From the NCBI RefSeq assembly GCF_001517405.1, contig NZ_LN907828.1:1-64000 (forward strand): a DNA stretch of 64,000 bases. Direction: 5' to 3'. The DNA is from Duffyella gerundensis. Lineage in GTDB: Bacteria; Pseudomonadota; Gammaproteobacteria; Enterobacterales; Enterobacteriaceae. Positions 36,107 through 57,652 of the stretch are shown here, one piece after another. Both the position numbers and the translations under genes were made by a program. Within the stretch, counting starts at the first letter, position 1, and each line of letters starts with the position of its first letter. Under the pieces are notes generated by a model. It searched no databases, was not told the origin of the DNA, and saw only the letters and a list, made by a program, of their open reading frames with translations.

Positions 36107-37054
36107 TTATGACAGTCGAAACGGAATCACCTCGCCCTGCGGACCGCTTTCACCGCGCAGCATGGCGAATAGCAGCTGCGACGATTTCAGCCCGGCACTT
36201 TGATAACCCAACTCAACCGACGTAATGCCAGGCTCAAGAAAGGTCATCAGCGGCGTGCAGCCAATACTGCCGACTTTGATATCCCACGACTGCTCTCTGA
36301 TATATTTTATCGCCCCCAACGCGATGGTATCCGTTGCGCAGATCAGGGCGCGGGTCTCTGCTGTCAGGCTGCGCTTTGCCAGGTCATAACCACTTTGATA
36401 ACTGAGGTCGCCCAGCGCTGCCGAGGGCGCATAGCCGTATTTTTCACAGCACGTCAGGTAAGCCTGATAGCGTGCGCTGCCGGTGGTCTGATCGTTATTG
36501 GTGACGCCGATATAGCTCACATTTTGGTGGCCCTGATTTTTCATCTTTTCCATCAGGATGTTGACGGCGCCCGCATTATCGTAGGTTACCGAGGCAAAAC
36601 CTGGAATCGCCGAGGCGATAATCACCATTTTATCCTTCCACACCTTCAGGCTTTTCTTGTTCATTTCTGAAAAGCCAAACAGGATCACCCCTTCAACATT
36701 CCGCTGCTCCAGCACATGCAGGTGGTCTTCAAGCAACTGCGGATCCAGCAGGCTCTCCATCAAAATAGCGTCATATTTTTGTGCGTAAATATCGGGAAGA
36801 ATCGCGCGGACGACCTGATTTTCCGATACCGAATCCAGACGCGTAACGATCACGCCAATGATTTTTTCGCGCTGTGAGCGCAATGCCTGTGCCGATTTTG
36901 ACGGCGTGTAGCCATACTGGTCGATAATGGCTTCAACATGCTGGCGCGTTGAGGCTTTGACCTTATCGCTGTTGTTAATGACCAGCGAGACAGTGGACTT
37001 TCCGACGCCACTCAGTCTGGCAATATCATTCAGGGTCAACTTTTTCTCATTCAT
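36107..37054 (-). CDS. treR: Trehalose operon repressor TreR
   Basis: 315 residues, the E. coli TreR length. LacI HTH LTLNDIARLSGVGKSTVSLVINNSDKV, hinge, then a ligand-binding domain that in TreR senses trehalose 6-phosphate. It is divergent from treB, whereas in E. coli treR lies upstream of treBC on the same strand. TreR-type operators lie before both treB copies in the window (37166 and 57678), so it should control both. Confidence 0.9.
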   Translation of the reverse strand: MNEKKLTLNDIARLSGVGKSTVSLVINNSDKVKASTRQHVEAIIDQYGYTPSKSAQALRSQREKIIGVIVTRLDSVSENQVVRAILPDIYAQKYDAILMESLLDPQLLEDHLHVLEQRNVEGVILFGFSEMNKKSLKVWKDKMVIIASAIPGFASVTYDNAGAVNILMEKMKNQGHQNVSYIGVTNNDQTTGSARYQAYLTCCEKYGYAPSAALGDLSYQSGYDLAKRSLTAETRALICATDTIALGAIKYIREQSWDIKVGSIGCTPLMTFLEPGITSVELGYQSAGLKSSQLLFAMLRGESGPQGEVIPFRLS

Positions 37055-37177: not shown

Positions 37178-37288
37178 GCTATCGGTTGTTTTTTTAAGCA
37201 GCTATGTTCTCACTCGCCCTGAGACAGGAATCCCCCGTTTCCGGAGAACAATGAACAACGACCCCTCTACCCGTTGCGGAAGGCAAAC

Positions 37289-38710
37289 ATGGCGATTAAG
37301 AGTAACACCCAGGATATCGATAAATTGATTGAGATGGTCGGCGGCAAGAGCAATATCGCCACCGTAACTCACTGTATTACAAGGCTACGCTTTGTACTGA
37401 ACGATCCGGCAAAAGCCCGGCCAAAAGAGATCGAAACGCTGCCAATGGTCAAAGGCTGCTTTACCAACGCCGGACAGTTTCAGGTGGTAATCGGCACCGA
37501 CGTCGATGACTGGTATCAGGTACTGCTGGCGCAAACCCAGCTCTCCGGCACCGACAAAGAGAGCGCCAAGCGGGTGGCGCGCCAGAACATGAAGTGGCAC
37601 GAAAGCCTGATCTCCCACTTCGCGGAGATCTTCTTTCCGCTGCTGCCTGCGCTGATCAGCGGTGGCCTGATCCTCGGCTTCCGCAACCTGATTGGCGATT
37701 TGCCGCTCTACAACGACGCGCCGCTGACCGAAGCTTCGGTGGTGTGGAAAAGTATCTACGATTTCCTGTGGCTGATCGGTGAGGCGATCTTCTTCTACAT
37801 TCCGGTGGGCATCTGCTGGTCGGTGGTGAAAAAAATGGGCGGCACACCGATCCTCGGCATCGTGCTGGGCATCACGCTGGTCTCACCGCAGCTGATGAAC
37901 GCCTACCTGCTGGGGCAACAAATCCCCGAAGTGTGGAACTTTGGCTGGTTCACCATCGACAAAGTGGGTTATCAGTCGCAGGTCATTCCGTCGATACTGG
38001 CTGGCCTGACGCTGGCGTGGATTGAGCTGAAGCTCAAACGCATCGTGCCCGACTACCTGACGCTGGTGGTGGTGCCGGTTGTTTCGCTGCTGCTGGCGGT
38101 TTTCCTCGCGCATACCATCATTGGGCCGTTTGGTCGCGTTATCGGTAATGGTATTGCCTGGGGCGTCAGCCACCTGATGACCGGTCCGTTTGCGCCGATC
38201 GGCTCCGCGCTGTTTGGTTTCCTGTACGCGCCGCTGGTGATTACCGGCGTGCACCAGACCACGCTGGCCGTGGATCTGCAGCTGATCCAGAACCTCGGCG
38301 GCACGCCGGTGTGGCCGATTATTGCGCTCTCCAACATGGCGCAGGGTTCGGCGGTGCTGGGCATCATCTTTATGAGTAAGAAGGTCAACGAACGGGAAAT
38401 TTCGGTGCCGGCCGCTATCTCCGCGTACCTTGGCGTTACCGAACCGGCGATGTACGGCATCAACATGAAGTACCGCTTCCCGATGCTCTGCGGCATGGTG
38501 GGATCGGCCGCAGCCGGGCTGATTTGCGGCTTGTCCGGCGTAATGGCTAACGGCATTGGCGTCGGCGGATTACCCGCGATTCTTTCGGTGAAAACCCAGT
38601 ACTGGTCGGTGTTTGGCACGGCAATGATTGTGGCGATTGCGGTTCCGCTGATGCTCACCATGGCGATCTATAAACGCAAACATGCAGCCGGCAAACTTCT
38701 GGTTGTCTGA
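37289..38710 (+). CDS. treB: Trehalose PTS permease EIIBC, copy 1
   Basis: 473 residues from ATG 37289, the same length as E. coli TreB. EIIB with phosphocysteine Cys29 in VTHCITRLRF (residues 1-85) is followed by EIIC with about ten helices (105-473), including GVHQTT and LGVTEPAMYG. It imports trehalose as trehalose 6-phosphate using EIIA from the glucose PTS. treC follows 18 bases later. A second, inverted copy at 56135-57556 is nearly identical in the EIIC part. Confidence 0.94.
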   Translation: MAIKSNTQDIDKLIEMVGGKSNIATVTHCITRLRFVLNDPAKARPKEIETLPMVKGCFTNAGQFQVVIGTDVDDWYQVLLAQTQLSGTDKESAKRVARQNMKWHESLISHFAEIFFPLLPALISGGLILGFRNLIGDLPLYNDAPLTEASVVWKSIYDFLWLIGEAIFFYIPVGICWSVVKKMGGTPILGIVLGITLVSPQLMNAYLLGQQIPEVWNFGWFTIDKVGYQSQVIPSILAGLTLAWIELKLKRIVPDYLTLVVVPVVSLLLAVFLAHTIIGPFGRVIGNGIAWGVSHLMTGPFAPIGSALFGFLYAPLVITGVHQTTLAVDLQLIQNLGGTPVWPIIALSNMAQGSAVLGIIFMSKKVNEREISVPAAISAYLGVTEPAMYGINMKYRFPMLCGMVGSAAAGLICGLSGVMANGIGVGGLPAILSVKTQYWSVFGTAMIVAIAVPLMLTMAIYKRKHAAGKLLVV

Positions 38711-38728
38711 GTGAAAGGACATCACAAC

Positions 38729-40387
38729 ATGAGAAACGACGCGCACTGGTGGCAGAACGGGGTAATTTACCAGATCTACCCACGCAGTTTTCAGGACAGC
38801 AGCGGCAATGGCATCGGCGATATTCCTGGCATTACCCAGCGGCTGGATTATCTGCAATGGCTGGGCGTCAGTGCCATCTGGCTGACGCCGGTTTACTCCT
38901 CACCGCAGGTTGATAATGGCTATGACGTCTCCGACTATTACGCCATCGATCCGCTGTTTGGCACCATGGAAGATTTCGAGGCGCTGGTGGCTGCCGCCCA
39001 TGCGCGTGACATCAGAATAGTCATGGATATGGTGTTTAACCATACCTCTACGGAACATCCCTGGTTTCAGTCTGCTGCTAACGACCGCAACAGTCCGTGG
39101 CGCAATTACTACATCTGGCGTGATGGTAAAGAGGGACGGTTGCCGAATAACTGGCACTCGAAGTTTGGTGGCAGCGCCTGGCACTGGCACGAAGAGAGTC
39201 AGCAGTATTATCTGCATTCGTTCTCGGCGCGGCAGGCCGATCTCAACTGGGAAAACCCGGACGTGCGCAACGCCCTGAAGGCGATCTGTCATTTCTGGGC
39301 GGACAAAGGCGTCGACGGACTTCGTCTGGATGTGATCAACCTGGTGTCGAAGCATCCCGATCTGCCGGACGATCATGAAGGCGATGGCCGCCGTTTTTAC
39401 ACCGATGGCCCATCGATTCACGATTTTCTCGAAGAGATGAGCCGGGATGTGTTCCAGCCGCGTGGCCTGATGACGGTAGGTGAGATGTCATCCACGCAGC
39501 TGGAACACTGCCAGCGCTATGCGCGTCTGGACGGCAAAGAGCTGTCGATGACCTTTAATTTTCACCATCTCAAAATAGATTATCCTGCTGGGGAAAAATG
39601 GCGGCTGGCACCGCCCGATCGGGTGGCGCTGAAGCGAATATTCTCTGAGTGGCAGTGCGGTATGCACGGCCTGGCGTGGAACGCGTTGTTCTGGTGCAAT
39701 CACGATCAGCCGCGCATCGTGTCGCGTCTTGGCGACGATGGGCCATTGCGTACGGCGTCAGCGAAAATGCTGGCGATGGTGCTGCATGGCATGCAGGGCA
39801 CGCCGTACATCTATCAGGGTGAAGAGATTGGCATGACCAATCCGCACTTCACCGACATTGCGCAGTACCGCGATGTCGAGAGCCTGAATATGTACAAAAT
39901 CCTGCGCCTTCATCAGGAAGAGGAGGACGTATTGGCCGTGCTCGCGGCGAAATCACGCGATAACGGCAGGACGCCGGTGCAGTGGGATGCCGGAGAAAAT
40001 GCCGGTTTTACCCGCGGCACAAGCTGGATTGACCTTGCGCCTAATTATCGTGAGATCAACGTGGCGCGAGAACGGGAGAATGTTGATTCAGTGCTGCACA
40101 CCTATCGTCAGCTGATCGCGCTGCGTAAAAGCATGCCGATCCTGACGTGGGGGAATTATGTTGATCTGGATCCTGAATCAGAAACCTGTTGGTGCTATCA
40201 GCGCGAGGACAATGGCCACACGCTGCGGGTGATTGCCAACCTCGATAATCAGCCCATACCGCTGGCTGAGAACCACTTTTCGACAGAAGAAGGGTGGCAG
40301 CTGGTGTGTGCCAACTATAGTGATTCCGCGCAGCAGCTGACCAGCGGCCTGTTGCGGCCTTATGAATGTGTTTGGTTAAGTAAGTAA
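38729..40387 (+). CDS. treC: Trehalose-6-phosphate hydrolase TreC
   Basis: 552 residues from ATG 38729. GH13 alpha-amylase fold: QIYPRSFQDS start, VFNHTS, catalytic nucleophile Asp in LRLDVINL near residue 200, acid Glu in TVGEMSS near 252, third Asp in NHDQPR near 326. It splits trehalose 6-phosphate to glucose and glucose 6-phosphate in the cytosol. It closes the treBC operon; a hairpin follows. The second treB copy has no treC of its own and would depend on this enzyme. Confidence 0.94.
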   Translation: MRNDAHWWQNGVIYQIYPRSFQDSSGNGIGDIPGITQRLDYLQWLGVSAIWLTPVYSSPQVDNGYDVSDYYAIDPLFGTMEDFEALVAAAHARDIRIVMDMVFNHTSTEHPWFQSAANDRNSPWRNYYIWRDGKEGRLPNNWHSKFGGSAWHWHEESQQYYLHSFSARQADLNWENPDVRNALKAICHFWADKGVDGLRLDVINLVSKHPDLPDDHEGDGRRFYTDGPSIHDFLEEMSRDVFQPRGLMTVGEMSSTQLEHCQRYARLDGKELSMTFNFHHLKIDYPAGEKWRLAPPDRVALKRIFSEWQCGMHGLAWNALFWCNHDQPRIVSRLGDDGPLRTASAKMLAMVLHGMQGTPYIYQGEEIGMTNPHFTDIAQYRDVESLNMYKILRLHQEEEDVLAVLAAKSRDNGRTPVQWDAGENAGFTRGTSWIDLAPNYREINVARERENVDSVLHTYRQLIALRKSMPILTWGNYVDLDPESETCWCYQREDNGHTLRVIANLDNQPIPLAENHFSTEEGWQLVCANYSDSAQQLTSGLLRPYECVWLSK

Positions 40388-40535: not shown

Positions 40536-41906
40536 ATGCAAAGCTGTGGTAGTAAATGCGCGATATTTATTTCATTTGATGCTGTTTCTCTGTCAGGTAT
40601 TACCGTTGAAGCCTCGAAGACTGCGAAGGAATTATCCCGGCAAGGTTATCGCTGCTTTCTCGATCTTGGTTATGATATCAAATTCGACAAAGGTAATTTC
40701 GCTAAGGAATATGGCTATGAACGTGATATTTACCGCGATGTCTTTACGCTGGTTCGCGTTGACGATATTTTCGATGTGCCATTTTATAATCGGGCATTTA
40801 TCGAAAAAACGCAGAATGTTTTAATTAGCCAAAAAACTGTTTCTTCGGAAAAGGAAAAGGAGGCGTTAATTGCCTGTATTAATCAATCGGCACAGGCGCT
40901 GAGTGAAAAGATTCTTAACCTATGGCGCACTCTCGATATCAGCGCGGTGCTGGTGGAAAATGGCACTCTGCCTGAGAATATTATTTATACCAAAGCGCTT
41001 TATCGGGCGATTGAACACTATGGTCATGAACGCGGTTTGCATAAATATGTTATCTGGCGCGATCATGATTTGATGTGGAACAGCGAAAAGAAGGTGATGA
41101 AGTATGGCGAACCGCCGTATCCTTATGCGGTCAAGCCGGTAGCATCAGAATTTATCACCTACGTGACGCTGAATCAGGATTTGAAAGAGAAGCTGGAGAG
41201 CTGGTGCGATCATCAGGTTGAGGTCAGCGTTAAAAAGAACACCTACGATTTTACCGAAGACTTCTCAGGCACTGACCTGCGGCGTTATTTTGATATCCGC
41301 GAGCAGGACATCATCATCGCCCGCACTACGCGAATCATTGCGCAGAAACGCATCGATCGGGACATCATTCTGACGCAGCGACTCAACCGCTTATTTGAAC
41401 AGAATGATATCGATAAAAAGATTTTCCTGATTATCGCCGGTGATACTGAAGAGGACGATCATCATTATCAGCATCTGCAAAAATTAGTGAAAAAGCTCGC
41501 TATCCTGCCACAGATTAAATTTATTGGCCCACTGCACCATAGCTGTATCTCACTGAGGACCGAACGCTTTACCATCGAAGATTTATATTATTCGAGCAAT
41601 CTTGTCTCTTTTCTCACTTCGTGGGATTACGACAGCTACGGCAATCCCATTGGCGAGGCGATAAGTTGCCAGCGCTGTTATATCGCGAGTCGCTATGAAT
41701 ATTACCATGAGGTTTACGGCCAGCATGGCTTTCATGCGCCGCTGATGAATATATCGGAAGGCGATGATGGATTGCCTGATGATGATTTTATCAATGATGT
41801 GTTTGCGTTGATTAACGATCCTGCTGCCATGCAGCGTATTGCGCAGGCCAATTTTGTGCTGGGTAAACGCGTTTTGTCTAATAATGTTATTGATATATTA
41901 ATCTAA
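40536..41906 (+). CDS. GT4-like glycosyltransferase (first gene of putative biosynthetic cluster)
   Basis: 456 residues, start after AAGGGGTAATATA. A GT-B fold is suggested by the N-terminal GITVEASKTAKELSRQGYRC (glycine loop and helix of GT4 enzymes), a mid-protein IIARTTRIIAQKRID segment, LIIAGD, and the acceptor/donor motif near residues 365-382 (WDYDSYGNPIGEAIS) with the paired acidic residues of the E-x7-E type. No membrane segments. It is AT-richer than its surroundings, suggesting transfer. Acceptor and donor sugar unknown. Confidence 0.75.
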   Translation: MQSCGSKCAIFISFDAVSLSGITVEASKTAKELSRQGYRCFLDLGYDIKFDKGNFAKEYGYERDIYRDVFTLVRVDDIFDVPFYNRAFIEKTQNVLISQKTVSSEKEKEALIACINQSAQALSEKILNLWRTLDISAVLVENGTLPENIIYTKALYRAIEHYGHERGLHKYVIWRDHDLMWNSEKKVMKYGEPPYPYAVKPVASEFITYVTLNQDLKEKLESWCDHQVEVSVKKNTYDFTEDFSGTDLRRYFDIREQDIIIARTTRIIAQKRIDRDIILTQRLNRLFEQNDIDKKIFLIIAGDTEEDDHHYQHLQKLVKKLAILPQIKFIGPLHHSCISLRTERFTIEDLYYSSNLVSFLTSWDYDSYGNPIGEAISCQRCYIASRYEYYHEVYGQHGFHAPLMNISEGDDGLPDDDFINDVFALINDPAAMQRIAQANFVLGKRVLSNNVIDILI

Positions 41907-41919
41907 TCCTGGAGGAAAT

Positions 41920-43197
41920 ATGCGCGATAATATTGCCGTATCTGTTGTGCTGCCCGTATTTAATGAAAGTGCCAGAATCGATGCGGTGCTCAATTCACTT
42001 TATCATCAACAAACCCGCAATGAATTAATTACGCATGACAGCTATGAGCTGATTATTGTTGATAATAACTGCACCGATGATTCGGTAGCCAAAATCAATG
42101 CGTTCAGCCAGCAGCATCCGGCGCTGGATATTCATGTCATTGTTGAAAAAGTGCAGGGCGTCTCCTCGGCGCGTAAGCGCGGCATGGATTACGCCTCTCA
42201 GCGGGCCAGCGTGCGCGATAGCCGTCTGGGCCGGGAAAGAAAGCACTACATCGTTTCGGCGGACGCGGATTGCACGGTGGATGCTTTTTGGCTGCATGAA
42301 CTCACCGCCACGATGATCGCTGAAAACGGCGATTTGGGCACCTGTAACTACTACTACGATTTTGAGCACTTTCGCCAGCGGCCCAATCTGTTCCGGGAGA
42401 TTCAAAAAACGCTGCGCTGCCGCGACTTCTCTTTCAGCCTTTTTGGCGGCTTCCCGGATGGCAAGGGCTTTGCCGTTGAACGCCAGCTGTATGATCGCGT
42501 CGGCGGCATCGAGATTTTTTACCAGCTTGAGCGCGGCCGCTTCGTCGAACACCTTTCAGATGACTGGGATTTCGGCATCCGCGTGATCGCCTGGGGCGGC
42601 AAACCAGTCTATGCCCGCGAATCCTGCGTGGAGATCAACAGCCGCCGCGTCGATACCATTCTTAATGAGGTGATCAACGGCGTGGCCTATGGGCGCGACG
42701 GCATCATCATCATGAAAGATGTCAGGCCCGAAACCAGCAGCAAGAATTGTGCGCTGGTTGATACCAACGAAGCGGAGTCGCAGCAGGCCTGGTTTTATTC
42801 AATCAAAGATTACCTGCCCAAAAATATCATCTTACCGGTGCTGTTAAACCCGCAGCTGTTGCTGGAGCGTGAAGACGTGCGCCAGTTCTACAGCGGCCCG
42901 GTGGCCGACCGGCTCTACGCGCGCATTCATGAAATCAAATATGAGATGCGGATCATCGATTTCAAACCGATACACGCCTACAAAACGCCCGCCTACCGGC
43001 TCTATTTTGAATTTCGTCATGAACTGTTTGCTGCGTTGCGGCGTGCCGTTGGCGAGGACATTGGCTATCCGCCGCCGCTGCCCACCTGTTTTGATTCGGT
43101 TGCAGAAGCGGATTTCACCCGTTTTGTCGGCTACTTCTGCGAAGACCGCGAGTCCGGGGAAGCCCACAACTATTTCGCTAATGGAGGTGTATTTTGA
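41920..43197 (+). CDS. GT2-family glycosyltransferase
   Basis: 425 residues. GT-A fold: SVVLPVFNESARIDAVLNSL near the N-terminus, IIVDNNCTDDS, the metal-binding D-x-D in SADADCT near residue 113, and a SDDWDFGIR acceptor motif near residue 208. No membrane helices. The C-terminal 150 residues are unassigned. It is 13 bases after the GT4 gene and overlaps the radical SAM gene by four bases (ATGA), so the three are translationally linked. Confidence 0.8.
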   Translation: MRDNIAVSVVLPVFNESARIDAVLNSLYHQQTRNELITHDSYELIIVDNNCTDDSVAKINAFSQQHPALDIHVIVEKVQGVSSARKRGMDYASQRASVRDSRLGRERKHYIVSADADCTVDAFWLHELTATMIAENGDLGTCNYYYDFEHFRQRPNLFREIQKTLRCRDFSFSLFGGFPDGKGFAVERQLYDRVGGIEIFYQLERGRFVEHLSDDWDFGIRVIAWGGKPVYARESCVEINSRRVDTILNEVINGVAYGRDGIIIMKDVRPETSSKNCALVDTNEAESQQAWFYSIKDYLPKNIILPVLLNPQLLLEREDVRQFYSGPVADRLYARIHEIKYEMRIIDFKPIHAYKTPAYRLYFEFRHELFAALRRAVGEDIGYPPPLPTCFDSVAEADFTRFVGYFCEDRESGEAHNYFANGGVF

Positions 43198-44636
43198 TGA
43201 ACACTGAAGCGCTGGCATCACTGAACGATATCGATCCCAATTATCCTGTGCCGCAGGTGTGGGATTTCCTGTCCCGTCCCGAAAACCACCTGTTTCTGGA
43301 TTATGTCTATCGCGATCCCTTCGGCTGTCACGTTTTTCCCGGCGACATCGAAGCGTACCCGCTGGCTTCCTTTTTTGCCGACATGGAGCGTGAAATCAGC
43401 GAAGCACGGCAAATCCACCTCTGGGCCTACATTCCAACCTGCCGCTATCGCTGCCATTTTTGCCAGTATCCTACGGTGATACTCAACCCGAAAGCGGCCT
43501 CCTCGCAAGAGGTGTTCCGCGATCTGGTGGATTACAACATCAAAGAAGCGACGATGTGGCTCGAAAAAGTGCCGAGCCTGGCGCAAGCGGAAATCGGCGA
43601 ATTCAACATCTTCGGCGGCACGCCGTCGCTGTTGCCCGAGCCGGAGCTGCGGCGGCTGATGGCCTTTTACTATGCGCATTTTAACTTTTCAGCCGCCACC
43701 CTGCGTTTCGAAGGCGAGCCGGGCACGCTGAACCGTGAATATATCGGCGTACTCAAGGAGCTGGGCTTCAGCAAAATCAGTTTTGGTACGCAGTCGTTCA
43801 ACGATCAAATCATCGCCGCCTGTGGCCGTATGCACACCGCCGATGAGTGTGAGGAAACCATCCGCAGCGCCAGAGAGCAGGGCATCGACTGGGTCAGCGT
43901 CGATCTGATCTACGGCATGCTTGGACAAACCGTCGATGACGTTAAATACGACATGGAAAAAACCCTTGAGCTGGAGCTGTCCCACGTGGTCTGCACCAAA
44001 CTGCACATGGAGGAGTTCATGAAGACGCGCACCGGCGTGTCAGGTGAACGCGAAAGCCTGTGGCAGAAAAAAGGGCTGATCAACATGAACAGCATGACCT
44101 TCCCGGGGTTGGGCAAGCAGTATCAGATGCGCGAGCTGGTGGAGCGCTATCTGCATAACGGCTATCAGGAACATCCCACGATGTATTTCCATCAGAAGCA
44201 TCAGGCGCCTGAAAAGTGGAAGGGGATGATCACCGATCTCGATAAGCAATATCCGGAAGTGGCCATCGGCCTCGGCGGCAGTTCAAAGTGCACCCGCTCG
44301 GAGGCGATCAACATCACCGGCTATAAAAAATACAAAGAGGCACTGGATGAAAATCGCCTGCCGATTGAGGAAAGCCGCGGCATTTCAGACGAAGCACGCG
44401 AAGTCAACGCCTTCAAAATGGCGCTCTCCACGCTGATCCCGGTTAGCGAAGCGGTATTCCGCGATCGCTTCAACGGCCGGAGCTATCTCGATAATCCGCT
44501 GATCGCCCACACGCTGAACAAGCTGCAACACAAGGGGCTGCTTAAGGTTGATACCCAGCAGGTCACGCTTACGCCACCCGGCGTCACGCTGGTTGAAGCG
44601 ATCATCAACACGCAATTCACCTTTGCAGAATCATGA
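43194..44636 (+). CDS. HemN-like radical SAM enzyme
   Basis: 480 residues. The 4Fe-4S cluster motif CxxxCxxC is CRYRCHFC (Cys83, Cys87, Cys90), with NIFGGTPSLLP near residue 137 and the HemN/HemW-like FEGEPGTLNREYIGVLKELGFSKISFGTQSF. A HemW-like C-terminal winged domain (LDNPLIAHTLNKLQHKGLL) is present. It is clearly not HemN or HemW itself given its diverged middle region and its location between glycosyltransferase and export genes. Class C radical SAM methyltransferases and cyclopropanases of natural-product pathways share this architecture. Exact reaction unknown. Confidence 0.8.
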   Translation: MMNTEALASLNDIDPNYPVPQVWDFLSRPENHLFLDYVYRDPFGCHVFPGDIEAYPLASFFADMEREISEARQIHLWAYIPTCRYRCHFCQYPTVILNPKAASSQEVFRDLVDYNIKEATMWLEKVPSLAQAEIGEFNIFGGTPSLLPEPELRRLMAFYYAHFNFSAATLRFEGEPGTLNREYIGVLKELGFSKISFGTQSFNDQIIAACGRMHTADECEETIRSAREQGIDWVSVDLIYGMLGQTVDDVKYDMEKTLELELSHVVCTKLHMEEFMKTRTGVSGERESLWQKKGLINMNSMTFPGLGKQYQMRELVERYLHNGYQEHPTMYFHQKHQAPEKWKGMITDLDKQYPEVAIGLGGSSKCTRSEAINITGYKKYKEALDENRLPIEESRGISDEAREVNAFKMALSTLIPVSEAVFRDRFNGRSYLDNPLIAHTLNKLQHKGLLKVDTQQVTLTPPGVTLVEAIINTQFTFAES

Positions 44637-44645
44637 GGCGCAGAT

Positions 44646-45449
44646 ATGAACAAGCAGAACGATACCACGCCGGTTTTCAGCTTCTATTACATCGCCATCG
44701 ATACGGAAGCGGGGATCACCGCTGAGGATTTTATAAGCTTTGTGCGTGAAAAAGGGGTGCATATTCCCTGTTATCCCGGCTGGCGCTGGACCTTGCTGCA
44801 CGGCCTGCGTGGCGAACGCGCGGGGCAGTTTATGATGCTGTATGAAATCGAAAGCGCCAGCCAGCGCGATCGTTACGTGACGGCGGACGGCAACCTGACG
44901 CCGGAAGCGCACGCCTTCTGGCAGCAGCATCCGCAGGCCCAGCCGCTGATTGCGCAATGGAAAACCTTCGGCACCTTTAGCGAGCTGCCGACCATTTATA
45001 CCGACTATCAGCTGTTGGCTGATAACCCTCGCAGCACGGTACCGGACGGGCCGCGCTATCAGGCGAGCTCAGAAGGCGAACCGATCGCCAGAGTCATCGG
45101 CATTCATAATCTGGCGCTGCGGCCGGGCGTCACCGCCGATGACTTTGAATCCTTTATTGCCGCCAATCATCACCGCATCGACGATTATCCCGACTGGAAG
45201 TTTCGCCTGCTGAAAGGGGTGCGCGGCAATCGCCTTGATCAATATGTGGTGCTGATGGAGATCGGCAGCCAGGCGGCGCTGGATGTGTTTTATCCGGAAC
45301 CGGATCTGGCAACCGACCAGGCGGCGCAGTTTGCCAGCGCCCATCGCGATACCAAAGCGATGTACGAAGAGTGGAAGAAACTCGCCTCATTTTCAGGCTC
45401 GCCGCAGCTCTACACGGATTACCTCTCCGTGGCAGAAAGTCTGAAATAA
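44646..45449 (+). CDS. Two-domain alpha/beta protein of unknown function, copy 1
   Basis: 267 residues made of two internal repeats (about 10-122 and 148-262). Each carries the block YPGWxWxLLxGxRGxRxxQYMxLYExxS, a WKxxxxF segment and LPTIYTDY or SPQLYTDY near the end. The size and pattern fit ferredoxin-like dimeric alpha/beta-barrel domains (NIPSNAP/EthD/ABM type), but I cannot name the family. A close paralogue lies at 46755. It follows the radical SAM gene by nine bases. It may be a small-molecule-modifying or binding protein of the cluster. Confidence 0.75.
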   Translation: MNKQNDTTPVFSFYYIAIDTEAGITAEDFISFVREKGVHIPCYPGWRWTLLHGLRGERAGQFMMLYEIESASQRDRYVTADGNLTPEAHAFWQQHPQAQPLIAQWKTFGTFSELPTIYTDYQLLADNPRSTVPDGPRYQASSEGEPIARVIGIHNLALRPGVTADDFESFIAANHHRIDDYPDWKFRLLKGVRGNRLDQYVVLMEIGSQAALDVFYPEPDLATDQAAQFASAHRDTKAMYEEWKKLASFSGSPQLYTDYLSVAESLK

Positions 45450-45461
45450 CGTGTAGAACCG

Positions 45462-45488
45462 GCACCGCCTGGCCAGCGCAGGCGGTGC
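45462..45488 (+). other. Hairpin inside the biosynthetic cluster
   Basis: GCACCGCCTG-GCCAGCG-CAGGCGGTGC, ten perfect GC-rich pairs, 12 bases after the copy-1 stop and before the MFS gene. No T run follows. It could reduce read-through or protect the upstream mRNA. Confidence 0.55.
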
Positions 45489-45531
45489 TGATACGCACTC
45501 TCAACCCTTTGCTGTGGAATATGACGCCTTC

Positions 45532-46701
45532 ATGACTATCAATCTGTCTGACAGAGATGTCGTCACACCGCTGCGCCAGCAGCGGGCGACACGGATGATC
45601 TTTTTTGTTGCCGGGCTGGGAATGGCCTCCTGGGCGCCGCTGATTCCGTTTGTGAAAAACCGGGTCAATGCGGATGACGCCACGCTCGGCCTGTTGCTGT
45701 TTTGTATTGCCGCCGGGGCGATGCTGATGATGCCGTTTACCAGCAGGCTGATCGCGCGCTTTAGCTATCGGTTGATCATTCTCTGCTGCTGCATCGCGCT
45801 GGCGTTGATCCTGCCGCTGCTGTTGATCGGTACCTCGTTGGGCGCACTGGCGGTGCTGCTGCTCTGTTTCGGCGCGGCGAATGGCATTCTGGATGTCACC
45901 ATGAACGCACAGGCGATTGTGGTGGAGCAGGCGAGCGGGCAGGCCAACATGTCCGGTTTTCACGGCTTTTACAGCCTCGGCAGCATTGCCGGAGCGGGCG
46001 GCGTCAGCATGCTGTTAGGGGCCAGTCTGCCTCCCATAATGGCTGCTGCGCTTGTCGCGGCGGGCGTGTTGCTGCTGGCGCTGATGGCCTTTCCCCAGTT
46101 GCTGCGTCGGCGTCACGCCCATCGCGCACAACAGCAAGGCGTGCTGCAGGCGCTGTGTCAGCGCGTGGTGCTGATTGTCGCCGTTCTCTGCTTCTTTATC
46201 TTCCTGATTGAGGGCGCCATGCTCGACTGGTCGGCGATATTTATGGCCACGGAACGCGGCATGGCGCTGCATCACGCGGGTTTTGGTTTTGCGATCTATT
46301 CGATTGCCGTAGCGATCGGACGGCTCTATGGCGATCGCATCATCAACCGCATCGGCGGCACAAAGGTATTAACCGGCGGCGGCCTGCTTGCCGCGGGCGC
46401 GCTAAGCGTGCTGCTGGTGAGCACCAGCGTGCCGCTGGCGCTGGGAGCGATCTTTTTTATCGGCCTCGGGCTCGCCAATATCATCCCGCTGCTGTTCACC
46501 ACCGCGGGCAACCAGCCGGAACTCTCTGCGGATGTCGCCATTCCCGCCGTTACGCTGGTCGGCTACAGCGGCCTGCTGGCTGGCCCGGCGCTGATTGGCT
46601 TCTCTGCTCACTGGGTTGGCCTCTCCGCAACCTTTGTGGCCGGTGTTTTCATCCTGCTGGCCGTGGCGCTCAGTGCGCGTCAGGTCATGGCACGGCAATA
46701 A
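45532..46701 (+). CDS. MFS transporter, likely exporter of the cluster
   Basis: 389 residues from ATG 45532 (GTG 45514 in frame is the alternative), with twelve predicted membrane helices. It resembles the YbjJ-like MFS group: MIFFVAGLGMASWAPLIPFVK start, ANGILDVTMNAQ near residue 115, GFHGFYSLGSIAGAGG. Its place between the two duplicated proteins suggests export of the pathway product, by inference. Proton-driven, inner membrane. Confidence 0.82.
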   Translation: MTINLSDRDVVTPLRQQRATRMIFFVAGLGMASWAPLIPFVKNRVNADDATLGLLLFCIAAGAMLMMPFTSRLIARFSYRLIILCCCIALALILPLLLIGTSLGALAVLLLCFGAANGILDVTMNAQAIVVEQASGQANMSGFHGFYSLGSIAGAGGVSMLLGASLPPIMAAALVAAGVLLLALMAFPQLLRRRHAHRAQQQGVLQALCQRVVLIVAVLCFFIFLIEGAMLDWSAIFMATERGMALHHAGFGFAIYSIAVAIGRLYGDRIINRIGGTKVLTGGGLLAAGALSVLLVSTSVPLALGAIFFIGLGLANIIPLLFTTAGNQPELSADVAIPAVTLVGYSGLLAGPALIGFSAHWVGLSATFVAGVFILLAVALSARQVMARQ

Positions 46702-46754
46702 CCTTGCCGTGCGCCGATTTTCTTACTTCTCCGTTGATACGCTAAGGAACCACC

Positions 46755-47555
46755 ATGAAAGAGTATGATCAGCCGGTATTTAGCCTGCATTACGTTGGAC
46801 TGAACCTCAAAAAAGGCGTGACCGCCGAACATTTCGAGCAGTTTGTGCAAACGCGTGGCGTACAGATTCCCGCCTATCCGGGGTGGAAATGGAGCCTGTT
46901 AAAGGGGCTGCGCGGCGAGCGGGAAAACCAGTACATGATGTTGTATGAAGCGGAAAGCGCACAGCACTACGCCCGCTACGTCGATGCAAAAGGGGGAAAA
47001 ACCGCGCTCGCGCACGCTTTCTGGCAGGATAACCCCGATGGGCAGGCGTTGATCACAGAATGGAAAACCTGGGCCACCTTCGGTGAATTGCCGACTATCT
47101 TCTCTTATTATTCGCTGCTGGCGGAAAACCGCCGCAGTTCGCTGCCCGCCGGGCCTAATTATCAGGCACTGCCCGGCCAGCCAGCGATCCAGCGCGTCGT
47201 CGGCATTCATAATCTGGCGCTGCATCAGGATGTTGCCGCAGCCACCTTTGATCAGTTTATCGTTGATAACGTCCATCGTATCGACGATTACCCTGGCTGG
47301 AAATTTCACATGCTCAAGGGGGAAGGCGGTAACCGGCAGGATCAGTATGCTGTAATGCTGATCATAGAAAGTATGGCATCGCTGAATGCGTTTCATCCGG
47401 AGCTGGATGTCTCGACGCCGCGTGCGCTGGCTTTTGTCGCAGAGCATCAGGAGAGCGAGCGCATGTATGAAGAGTGGCGCGCTCTGGCGTCATTCTCCGG
47501 CGCGCCGCAGCTTTACACCGATTACATCACCATTGCGGGTAACGTGACAGCGTAA
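46755..47555 (+). CDS. Two-domain alpha/beta protein of unknown function, copy 2
   Basis: 266 residues, a full-length paralogue of the protein at 44646 with the same internal duplication. Repeat 1 has YPGWKWSLLKGLRGE and LPTIFSYY; repeat 2 has IDDYPGWKFHMLKG and APQLYTDY. The repeat-1 halves of the two proteins resemble each other more than they resemble repeat 2, so the internal duplication came first and the gene duplication later. Clear ribosome site (AAGGAACCACC). Confidence 0.75.
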   Translation: MKEYDQPVFSLHYVGLNLKKGVTAEHFEQFVQTRGVQIPAYPGWKWSLLKGLRGERENQYMMLYEAESAQHYARYVDAKGGKTALAHAFWQDNPDGQALITEWKTWATFGELPTIFSYYSLLAENRRSSLPAGPNYQALPGQPAIQRVVGIHNLALHQDVAAATFDQFIVDNVHRIDDYPGWKFHMLKGEGGNRQDQYAVMLIIESMASLNAFHPELDVSTPRALAFVAEHQESERMYEEWRALASFSGAPQLYTDYITIAGNVTA

Positions 47556-47612
47556 TCCGCCTCATCGGTGGCGTTTACCGTCACCGCTTTTTTACCGGCA
47601 TGCGGAGGCACA

Positions 47613-48245
47613 ATGTATCGGCTTTATGGCACAGAACGTTCGGGATCGGCGGCCATTGAGATGGCGCTGGCGCGTTGTCAGGCTGACTATCGTCTGGAGA
47701 ACGCGAGTTCGTGGCAGGAGGGCAGCGGCAGCGAAGCGCTCAAAGCATTGAATCCGCTGATGCAGATCCCCACGCTGCTGCTGGCGGACGGGGCGGTGCT
47801 GACCGAAAGCGCAGCGATACTGATTTATCTTGGGCTGGAATATCCGCTTTCCGGTCTGCTGTCGAACGATGCCGATCTGCGTGCGCAGCAGATCCGCGGG
47901 CTGATCTTTATCAGCAGCAACTGCTATGCCGCTATTGGCGTAATCGATTATCCCGAGCGCTGGCTGGCTGCTGCCCACGACACTGCGCTGAGCGCCCTGA
48001 AAACCGGCGCCACGCAGCGACTGCATCAGCAGTGGGAGACGTTCAGCGATATCTTCAGTGCGACCGCTGCCTGGCGCCCGGACGATCCCGGCGCGCTGGA
48101 AATGCTTGCCTGTGTGGTCACGCGCTGGAGCGCAACACGACGCGAACTGCAACAAACCAGGCCCGAATTTTATGCCGCACTAACGCGCATTGATCGCCAT
48201 CCAACTCTTACAGCCGTGCTGCAACGTCACTGGCCAGCGGCGTAA
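47613..48245 (+). CDS. Glutathione S-transferase-like protein
   Basis: 210 residues from ATG 47613 (GCGGAGGCACA). Thioredoxin-like N-terminal domain MYRLYGTERSGSAAIEMAL with NPLMQIPTLLL (cis-Pro) and LTESAAILIYL (Glu-Ser glutathione contact), then an all-helical C-terminal domain. It may detoxify or conjugate an intermediate of the cluster, or the product. Last gene of the plus-strand run. Confidence 0.83.
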   Translation: MYRLYGTERSGSAAIEMALARCQADYRLENASSWQEGSGSEALKALNPLMQIPTLLLADGAVLTESAAILIYLGLEYPLSGLLSNDADLRAQQIRGLIFISSNCYAAIGVIDYPERWLAAAHDTALSALKTGATQRLHQQWETFSDIFSATAAWRPDDPGALEMLACVVTRWSATRRELQQTRPEFYAALTRIDRHPTLTAVLQRHWPAA

Positions 48246-56134: not shown

Positions 56135-57556
56135 TTAGACCACCAGCAGTTTGCCAGCGGCATGTTTGCGTTTATAAATCGCCATCGTCAACAACAGCGG
56201 TACGATGATCGCCACCAGCATGGCGATGCCGTAAATAGCCCAGTACTGGGTTTTCACCGAAAGAATCGCGGGTAATCCGCCGACGCCAATGCCGTTAGCC
56301 ATTACGCCGGACAAGCCGCAAATCAGCCCGGCTGCGGCCGATCCCACCATGCCGCAGAGCATCGGGAAGCGGTACTTCATGTTAATGCCGTACATCGCCG
56401 GTTCAGTAACACCAAGGTAGGCGGAGATGGCAGCGGGCACCGAAATTTCCCGTTCGTTGACCTTCTTACTCATAAAGATGATGCCCAGCACCGCTGAACC
56501 CTGCGCCATGTTGGAGAGCGCGATGATTGGCCACACCGGCGTGCCGCCGAGGTTCTGGATCAGCTGCAGATCCACGGCCAGCGTGGTCTGGTGCACGCCG
56601 GTAATCACCAGCGGCGCGTACAGGAAACCAAACAGCGCGGAGCCGATCGGCGCAAACGGACCGGTCATCAGGTGGCTGACGCCCCAGGCAATACCGTTAC
56701 CGATGATGCGGCCAAACGGCCCGATAATGGTGTGCGCGAGAAAGACCGCCAGCAGCAGCGAAACAACCGGCACCACCACCAGCGTCAGGTAGTCGGGCAC
56801 GATACGTTTGAGCTTCAGCTCAATCCACGCCAGCGTCAGGCCAGCCAGTATCGATGGAATAACCTGCGACTGATAGCCGACCTTATCGATCGAAAACCAG
56901 CCAAAATTCCACACTTCCGGGACTTGTTGGCCGAGCAGGTAAGCGTTCATCAGCTGCGGCGAAACCAGCGTAATACCCAGCACGATGCCGAGGATCGGCG
57001 TGCCGCCCATTTTCTTCACCACCGACCAGCAGATGCCCACTGGGATGTAGAAGAAGATCGCCTCGCCGATCAGCCATAAAAAGTCATACACGCTTTTCCA
57101 CACCACTGAGGCTTCGGTCAGCGGCGCGTCGTTGTAGAGCGGCAAATCGCCAATCAGGTTGCGGAAGCCGAGGATCAGGCCGCCGCTGATCAGCGCAGGC
57201 AGCAGCGGAAAGAAGATCTCCGCGAAGTGAGAGATCAGGCTTTCGTGCCACTTCATGTTCTGGCGCGCCACCCGCTTTGCACTCTCTTTGTCGGTTCGGC
57301 TTAGCTGGGTGCGTTCCAGCAGCACGTTATACCAGTCGCCGACGTCGGTGCCGATCACTACCTGAAACTGTCCGGCATTGGTAAAGCAGCCCTTAACCAT
57401 TGGCAGGTTTTCAATATCTTTTGGCCGGGCTTTGGCGGGGTCGTTCAGCACAAAGCGCAGTCGGGTGATACAGTGCGAAACCGTGGCTATATTACTTTTC
57501 CCGCCAACCAGATCGATGAGGTTATCGATATCCTGCGGGTTACTTTTTATCGCCAT
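56135..57556 (-). CDS. Trehalose PTS permease EIIBC, copy 2 (inverted paralogue)
   Basis: 473 residues, the same length as TreB at 37289. EIIB has Cys29 in VSHCITRLRF. By eye the EIIC middle (about residues 100-445) is almost identical to copy 1, while the N-terminal 95 and last 25 residues differ more (for example DVGDWYNVLLERTQLSR against DVDDWYQVLLAQTQLSG). Two DNA blocks of about 140-170 bases are identical. No treC lies beside it. TreR and CRP sites upstream match those of copy 1. Probably trehalose, possibly a related disaccharide. Confidence 0.9.
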   Translation of the reverse strand: MAIKSNPQDIDNLIDLVGGKSNIATVSHCITRLRFVLNDPAKARPKDIENLPMVKGCFTNAGQFQVVIGTDVGDWYNVLLERTQLSRTDKESAKRVARQNMKWHESLISHFAEIFFPLLPALISGGLILGFRNLIGDLPLYNDAPLTEASVVWKSVYDFLWLIGEAIFFYIPVGICWSVVKKMGGTPILGIVLGITLVSPQLMNAYLLGQQVPEVWNFGWFSIDKVGYQSQVIPSILAGLTLAWIELKLKRIVPDYLTLVVVPVVSLLLAVFLAHTIIGPFGRIIGNGIAWGVSHLMTGPFAPIGSALFGFLYAPLVITGVHQTTLAVDLQLIQNLGGTPVWPIIALSNMAQGSAVLGIIFMSKKVNEREISVPAAISAYLGVTEPAMYGINMKYRFPMLCGMVGSAAAGLICGLSGVMANGIGVGGLPAILSVKTQYWAIYGIAMLVAIIVPLLLTMAIYKRKHAAGKLLVV

Positions 57557-57652
57557 ATTGACCTTCCAGAGGATGAATGATGAGAAAAACTGATGGCCTG
57601 GGCTGTGCGAACGGGCCGTTTTTTTATAACTCTCCGCGCATCAAGAACATAG

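Follow-up and report, generated by a model that had tools for sequence, protein, structure and literature searches.

A six-gene cassette in Duffyella gerundensis probably directs the synthesis and export of a sugar-based compound; both the compound and the cassette, apparently a sugar-based natural-product cluster, seem to have escaped description so far. It lies within a 64-kb stretch of DNA (the window) that forms the start of contig C2 in a three-contig genome, where six of the seven plus-strand open reading frames at 40536-48245, namely those at 40536-47555, encode in this order a GT4-family glycosyltransferase (GT1), a GT2-family glycosyltransferase (GT2), a HemN-like radical SAM enzyme, the two-domain protein DD1, an MFS transporter and the DD1 paralogue DD2. 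The fuller reading, which is given about an even chance of being correct, is that of a mobile cassette for making and exporting a small, secreted metabolite of the oligosaccharide type, with trehalose or a derivative as the most likely acceptor and with a modification introduced by radical SAM chemistry. The features on which this reading is based are the following.

36107..37054, minus strand: treR, trehalose operon repressor (NCBIfam TIGR02405, above cut-off)
37274..38710, plus strand: treB, trehalose PTS IIBC (NCBIfam TIGR01992, above cut-off)
38711..40387, plus strand: treC, phosphotrehalase (NCBIfam TIGR02403, above cut-off), ending 148 bases 5' of GT1
40536..41906, plus strand: GT1, GT4-family (GT-B) glycosyltransferase, 456 aa
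41920..43197, plus strand: GT2, GT2-family (GT-A) glycosyltransferase, 425 aa
43194..44636, plus strand: HemN-like radical SAM enzyme, 480 aa, with a TTG start and the next ATG at 43197
44646..45449, plus strand: DD1, two-domain dimeric alpha/beta-barrel protein according to its model
45532..46701, plus strand: MFS transporter, likely exporter (Pfam MFS_1, E 2e-21), in a frame open from GTG 45514
46755..47555, plus strand: DD2, paralogue of DD1, 56% identical
47566..47592, plus strand: terminator-like hairpin and T-run, an 8-pair stem followed by CTTTTTT
47613..48245, plus strand: GST-like protein, judged to lie outside the cassette

The original prediction, of seven closely spaced plus-strand genes in the families of glycosyltransferases, radical SAM enzymes, MFS transporters and GSTs together with a pair of duplicated two-domain proteins, agreed with the open reading frames and spacing found here (gaps of 13, -4, 9, 82, 53 and 57 bases, given ATG 45532 for MFS and ATG 47613 for GST) and with Pfam, in which only the GT4-like assignment of GT1 stays just below the cut-off. 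NRPS and PKS genes are missing, as had been noted, and the gaps between operon genes (-4 to 82 bases) are too short to hold a RiPP precursor gene. On the other hand, the GST-like gene could not be retained as a cluster member, since it stands beside the cassette only in Duffyella, no locus of another species has it, and the hairpin, which is probably the end of the operon, lies 5' of it; this last argument is one of position alone, as terminator-like matches occur in the region at chance density.

The remaining genes do travel together, as the original prediction required. When the seven window proteins were compared by tblastn with 40 named loci (found by means of the radical SAM enzyme), further family genomes and plasmid records, 26 of the named loci proved to have the order GT1-GT2-radical SAM-DD1-MFS-DD2 in full, with hosts in Pseudomonas and Enterobacterales (Cedecea, Kosakonia, Serratia and Ewingella among others), and conservation of both order and orientation in dozens of genomes indicates more than chance. 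Two family-level searches, one for the radical SAM enzyme and one for DD, returned the identical 11 of 295 genomes; with a Pantoea DD protein as query 17 of 392 genomes were positive, and the six extra DD-positive genomes all possess the radical SAM gene too, split in one of them (G707) at an insertion-sequence-like stretch. The set is nonetheless rare and patchy, because in a phylum-wide sample radical SAM or DD homologues occurred in the window genome only; a search of E. coli genomes for the core gave zero matches.

Three modules can be distinguished, namely a universal core of GT4, GT2 and radical SAM genes, DD1, and an MFS-DD2 pair. This division follows from the rhizobial loci, from Pantoea dispersa and from the enterobacterial genus g117. 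The ten named rhizobial loci (Paraburkholderia, Sinorhizobium/Ensifer and Cupriavidus) hold GT1-GT2-radical SAM only, as do plasmids of P. phymatum, S. garamanticum, R. jaguaris and C. taiwanensis. Symbiosis plasmids of both alpha- and beta-rhizobia carry the core without DD1, MFS and DD2. A DD homologue is present on eight Pantoea dispersa megaplasmids, and on the one examined MFS (55% identical to the window protein) and DD2 (68%) stand as a pair, with the radical SAM gene absent from the record. Genus g117 has the core and DD1 only. DD2 would accordingly go with export, since in P. dispersa it is paired with MFS alone, and DD1, which stays beside the core in g117, would go with synthesis. 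GT1 and GT2 are annotated as a single fused protein in P. phymatum and S. garamanticum, which suggests that their reactions are coupled; one or the other is interrupted at two further loci (L042 and L044).

The maximum-likelihood tree of the radical SAM sequences shows that the cassette is horizontally mobile and has been transferred between classes, since the alpha- and beta-rhizobial sequences form a group nested among otherwise gammaproteobacterial ones. Within this group Sinorhizobium and Paraburkholderia are placed together (support 94/86), with the Cupriavidus pair and R. jaguaris beside them at positions that the tree does not fix. The hosts reached are many plant-, insect- and root-nodule-associated bacteria, and the surroundings of the cassette are unrelated from site to site, with no gene family found that is common to all flanks. 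The window enzyme itself is 99.4-99.6% identical to copies on 0.58-Mb plasmids of Duffyella gerundensis (Erwiniaceae). Transfer had originally been proposed because the first gene is AT-richer than its neighbours. The composition was confirmed (GC 0.437 in GT1 vs 0.53-0.61 in the neighbouring genes), but the GC content of GT1 falls below that of GT2 at 43 of 44 homologous loci, so that the low GC belongs to the gene and is no evidence of recent transfer.

With regard to the enzymes, GT1 matches Pfam Glycos_transf_1 with E 7e-5, and its AlphaFold model (pLDDT 86.5) lies nearest to HepE, PimA and BshA (VIA Z about 24), with WaaG also near. Judged from this model, it is a GT4 enzyme with a GT-B fold and with the donor-site R/K and E-x7-E-like positions, which correspond to the invariant R266 and K271 and to D366-x7-E374, where D replaces the first E of the motif. 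GT2 matches Glycos_transf_2 (E 3e-18) and has an invariant ADAD motif together with a C-terminal HNYFxNGGVF, features that identify it by sequence as a GT-A type enzyme. Two glycosyltransferases, one of them resembling HepE, PimA and WaaG in fold, might also be expected in a locus for surface polysaccharide or envelope glycan modification, and Bphy_7707 of P. phymatum is filed under envelope biogenesis in a passage of a paper on RpoN (PMC5979394). Nevertheless, this explanation is very unlikely and was rejected, because family scans of the cassette proteins gave no polymerase, flippase, lipid-carrier transferase or nucleotide-sugar pathway gene, the exporter is of the MFS type, and the cassette lands in unrelated surroundings. 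Somewhat less improbable, although still unlikely, is that the product resembles mannosylglucosylglycerate and serves as a compatible solute or stress sugar, and not as a secreted bioactive metabolite. Trehalose is itself a stress solute and GT1 weakly matches mannosylglucosylglycerate synthase (NF041101, E 2.4e-10), but at 39.8 bits vs a curated cut-off of 640, and the distribution of the cassette is very patchy. Radical SAM, MFS and DD genes are not known to belong to the mannosylglucosylglycerate pathway.

The third core protein has a Pfam Radical_SAM match and a CxxxCxxC motif (C83, C87, C90) that is invariant in 25 rows, which places it in the radical SAM superfamily; in PDB profile comparison it lies nearest to NocN (1e-25) and HemN (8e-23). 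By analogy with its family, the radical step would most likely be a C-methylation or another carbon-centred change; a link to class C radical SAM methyltransferases, which bind a second SAM and transfer a methyl group, is suggested only by the similarity to NocN. DD1 and DD2, of ~266 aa each, have no Pfam or NCBIfam family and gave only chance matches to the PDB by sequence, and the halves of one DD protein each have a counterpart in the halves of a homologue. In its model (pLDDT 88.7) DD1 consists of two ferredoxin-like domains that match 2pgc best (VIA Z 15.2), followed by PenE (12.7) and, at Z about 12, sulfur oxygenase reductases and putative monooxygenases, with HmoB and HemQ/chlorite dismutase lower at Z 8-10. 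The DD proteins are predicted to be fused dimeric alpha/beta barrels like those of antibiotic biosynthesis monooxygenases (ABM), the agreement being one of fold and not of a Pfam match. Since HmoB and HemQ share this fold, and the core enzyme resembles HemN, a haem or tetrapyrrole pathway with haem-oxygenase-like barrels was considered as well. It is the least probable of the explanations and was discarded: the radical SAM enzyme scores far under every HemN, HemW, STM4012 and HutW cut-off (at best 117 bits vs 380 for STM4012 and 115.6 vs 205.4 for HemW), two glycosyltransferases are part of the cassette, rhizobial versions lack DD, and porphyrin genes are absent from all flank lists examined.

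The nature of the acceptor is suggested by neighbouring genes. In the window treR-treB-treC lie directly 5' of GT1, with treBC co-directional; the genome has a further treB (73%) on contig C1, and an inverted, 90%-identical treB copy lies at 56135-57556. In genome G747 treB-treC directly follow DD2, whereas in G707 a divergent upstream set comprises treB, a GH65 protein and a beta-phosphoglucomutase-like HAD protein (pgmB). Six Pseudomonas loci have treB-treC upstream, followed in those examined by a LamB-like porin and a PTS EI fusion. On a Pseudochrobactrum plasmid, a sugar ABC transporter-thuA-thuB set ends 15 bases before GT1 at a locus whose GT2 and radical SAM genes are broken; ThuA corresponds to Pfam 'Trehalose utilisation', and ThuB takes its name from where it lies and from a generic GFO/IDH match. 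Four g117 genomes have a co-directional series otsB-otsA-GMC oxidoreductase-class III aminotransferase-sulfotransferase that runs into GT1, with otsB and the sulfotransferase degraded in one (G731). This otsB is above its curated cut-off, and otsA (531.7 bits vs a cut-off of 564.85) can be aligned over almost its whole length with T6P synthases of solved structure. A second OtsA (52%) is encoded elsewhere in all four g117 genomes and, together with the chromosomal treB of the window genome, this shows that the cassette-linked trehalose genes are extra copies.

Trehalose genes of different kinds thus adjoin the cassette in six of about 23 contexts and in none of 60 control stretches, a difference with a hypergeometric probability near 3e-4 in which the number of contexts is a matter of judgement: strict flank-similarity grouping gives 20 groups, of which those bearing treBC merge through treB and treC themselves, and these were split by side and orientation. 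The controls were 20-kb stretches taken at regular intervals from seven genomes that carry the cassette, all enterobacterial, and hence do not represent Pseudomonas or alphaproteobacteria; they held no treC, otsA, otsB, trehalase, thuA, GH65 or trehalose-specific treB match, and their matches came from other families (one 29% PTS, eight LacI-family and two HAD). As trehalose genes occur beside the cassette far more often than at random sites, trehalose is suggested to be a building block of the product. It is also possible, if doubtful, that an exported, glycosylated and radical-SAM-modified metabolite is made which is not trehalose-based, the trehalose neighbours being explained by shared regulation or a preferred landing site. 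Trehalose genes are missing from the neighbourhood in about 17 of the 23 contexts; where they are present, four of the six sets serve uptake or breakdown and not synthesis, and may share only regulation or landing site with the cassette; and neither GT1 nor GT2 showed trehalose-specific features, the structure of GT1 resembling trehalose synthases no more closely than it does other members of the GT4 family. Against this, four kinds of trehalose genes are found on varied sides and in varied lineages vs none in the 60 controls, and in g117 a dedicated otsBA pair runs in the same direction into GT1.

According to the relevant passages on published RNA-seq data, expression of the P. phymatum copy in nodules requires NifA and RpoN: in bean nodules a nifA mutant had Bphy_7706 (the radical SAM gene) at -4.07 log2 and Bphy_7707 (the fused glycosyltransferase) at -4.98 log2 (PMC8305402), and Bphy_7707 was at -3.6 in an rpoN mutant (PMC5979394). 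These passages do not treat the two genes as a pathway, and the bacteroid expression in the former (PMC8305402) would also suit a stress sugar. Sigma-54 sites with at most two mismatches precede GT1 in 8 of 14 rhizobial loci (4% expected) vs none of 21 gammaproteobacterial loci, although the eight represent only three related groups, and they are suggestive only as a sign of regulation of the rhizobial core. In P. phymatum such a site is absent within 400 bases 5' of GT1, and no NifA UAS was found upstream of GT1 in the loci scanned for sigma-54 sites.

Taken together, the view that the enzyme set fits a small glycosylated, radical-SAM-modified and exported metabolite was largely upheld. In the proposed trehalose-based pathway, GT1 and then GT2 would glycosylate an acceptor, most likely, from the gene context, trehalose or a derivative; the HemN-like enzyme would alter the resulting glycoside by radical chemistry; DD1 and DD2, as cofactor-free-monooxygenase-like barrels, would complete the product or bind to it; and export would fall to the MFS transporter. 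MFS-DD2 alone would resemble export/protection modules, and in g117 the cassette would be extended by dedicated trehalose synthesis (otsBA) and a C6 oxidation-amination pair. Put more broadly, and tentatively, with chances somewhat below even, the mobile GT4-GT2-HemN-like cassette would define a new class of trehalose-based, radical-SAM-modified oligosaccharides, to which enterobacteria and pseudomonads add DD/MFS finishing and export, and of which rhizobia keep the core under nitrogen-fixation control, with production in nodules. If true, bacteria associated with plants, insects or nodules would share a class of natural product that follows neither NRPS, PKS nor RiPP logic, whose genes encode a sugar-modifying HemN-like radical SAM enzyme and, in DD, a protein family that Pfam and NCBIfam lack; as the P. 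phymatum copy is NifA-dependent, a role in symbiosis can be tested directly.

In the open-access literature searched, no paper was found that describes such a gene set, or that deals with 7LLD, in keeping with the original statement that no known cluster was recognised with this order; literature on two glycosyltransferases with a radical SAM enzyme includes work on gentamicin, but no set like the cassette. Among known systems, mannosylglucosylglycerate synthase (NF041101) shares with GT1 the GT4 family over most of its length, but differs in gene company and in a cut-off far above the GT1 score. NocN (9p2u) and HemN (1olt) share with the cassette enzyme CxxxCxxC, a GGTPS-type motif and about 200 aligned residues, but have Tyr six residues before the first Cys, where the cassette enzyme has an invariant Trp, and the enzyme lies well under all cut-offs of HemN, HemW and STM4012. 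The alpha/beta barrels 2pgc, PenE 9kdp, 3f44 and 5f9p have two fused ferredoxin-like domains in common with DD, but at about 10% identity and with no common sequence family; the likeness is one of fold and not of activity, 2pgc and 3f44 being themselves uncharacterised or putative. Gentamicin tailoring (GenQ, GenB1-4, GenK) offers a close parallel in logic, in that a small oligosaccharide is worked on by glycosyltransferases together with a radical SAM enzyme. GenK is cobalamin-dependent, and the cassette enzyme is HemN-like and not of the GenK type; moreover, the cassette lacks aminocyclitol genes and its core would be of the trehalose type, and no oxidase/aminotransferase pair or aminocyclitol synthase occurs among the cassette and treRBC proteins of the window. 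In gentamicin biosynthesis, C-6' is oxidised by the flavin enzyme GenQ and aminated by the PLP enzyme GenB (PMC4039129, PMC11420954). The g117 version also has a flavin oxidase and a relative of C-6' aminotransferases: its GMC protein is related to glucose dehydrogenase, pyranose oxidase and 6'''-hydroxyparomomycin C oxidase, and the best solved relatives of its aminotransferase are named C-6' aminotransferase (345 bits). As relatives of a sugar C6 oxidase and a C-6' aminotransferase, with C6 as the putative site of oxidation, they stand beside glycosyltransferases as in aminoglycoside clusters, and this GenQ/GenB-like C6 oxidation-amination pair, together with otsBA, suggests that the g117 version is an amino-trehalose variant.

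The version of the cluster that possibly tells most is that of the enterobacterial genus g117 (loci L114/L110), in which the core and DD1 close a longer run in the order otsB-otsA-GMC-aminotransferase-sulfotransferase-GT1-GT2-radical SAM-DD1:

G116:C3:7619-18839, g117 cluster, nine co-directional genes

In the window, the cassette lies, together with genes for an MCP, a UvrA-like protein and a two-component pair, between two copies of the trehalose PTS IIBC gene treB, which are 17.4 kb apart, show 90% identity when compared copy to copy and have opposite orientations, an arrangement that recurs on the Duffyella plasmid NZ_CP072599:

window 37278-38708, treB copy 1, inverted relative to copy 2
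window 56137-57567, treB copy 2, inverted relative to copy 1

Partial and decaying copies are also found:

L063 8806-10789, MFS-DD2 pair standing alone on a Pantoea dispersa megaplasmid, the biosynthetic core being absent beside it
L109 2211-9192, degenerating cassette copy of genome G707, with GT1 broken into two pieces and the radical SAM gene interrupted by a transposase-like insertion

Allowing at most two mismatches, suggestive sigma-54-like sites were counted 5' of the core in 8 of 14 rhizobial loci and upstream of GT1 in none of 21 gamma loci:

about 175 bases 5' of GT1, L035, L037, L049 and L056
about 210-340 bases 5' of GT1, L039, L042, L044 and L058

On a P. phymatum plasmid, the core lies about 9 kb from a toxin-like gene, which a published study lists as NifA-dependent (PMC8305402):

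L055 22197-23156, cytolethal distending toxin subunit B family protein gene, by annotation
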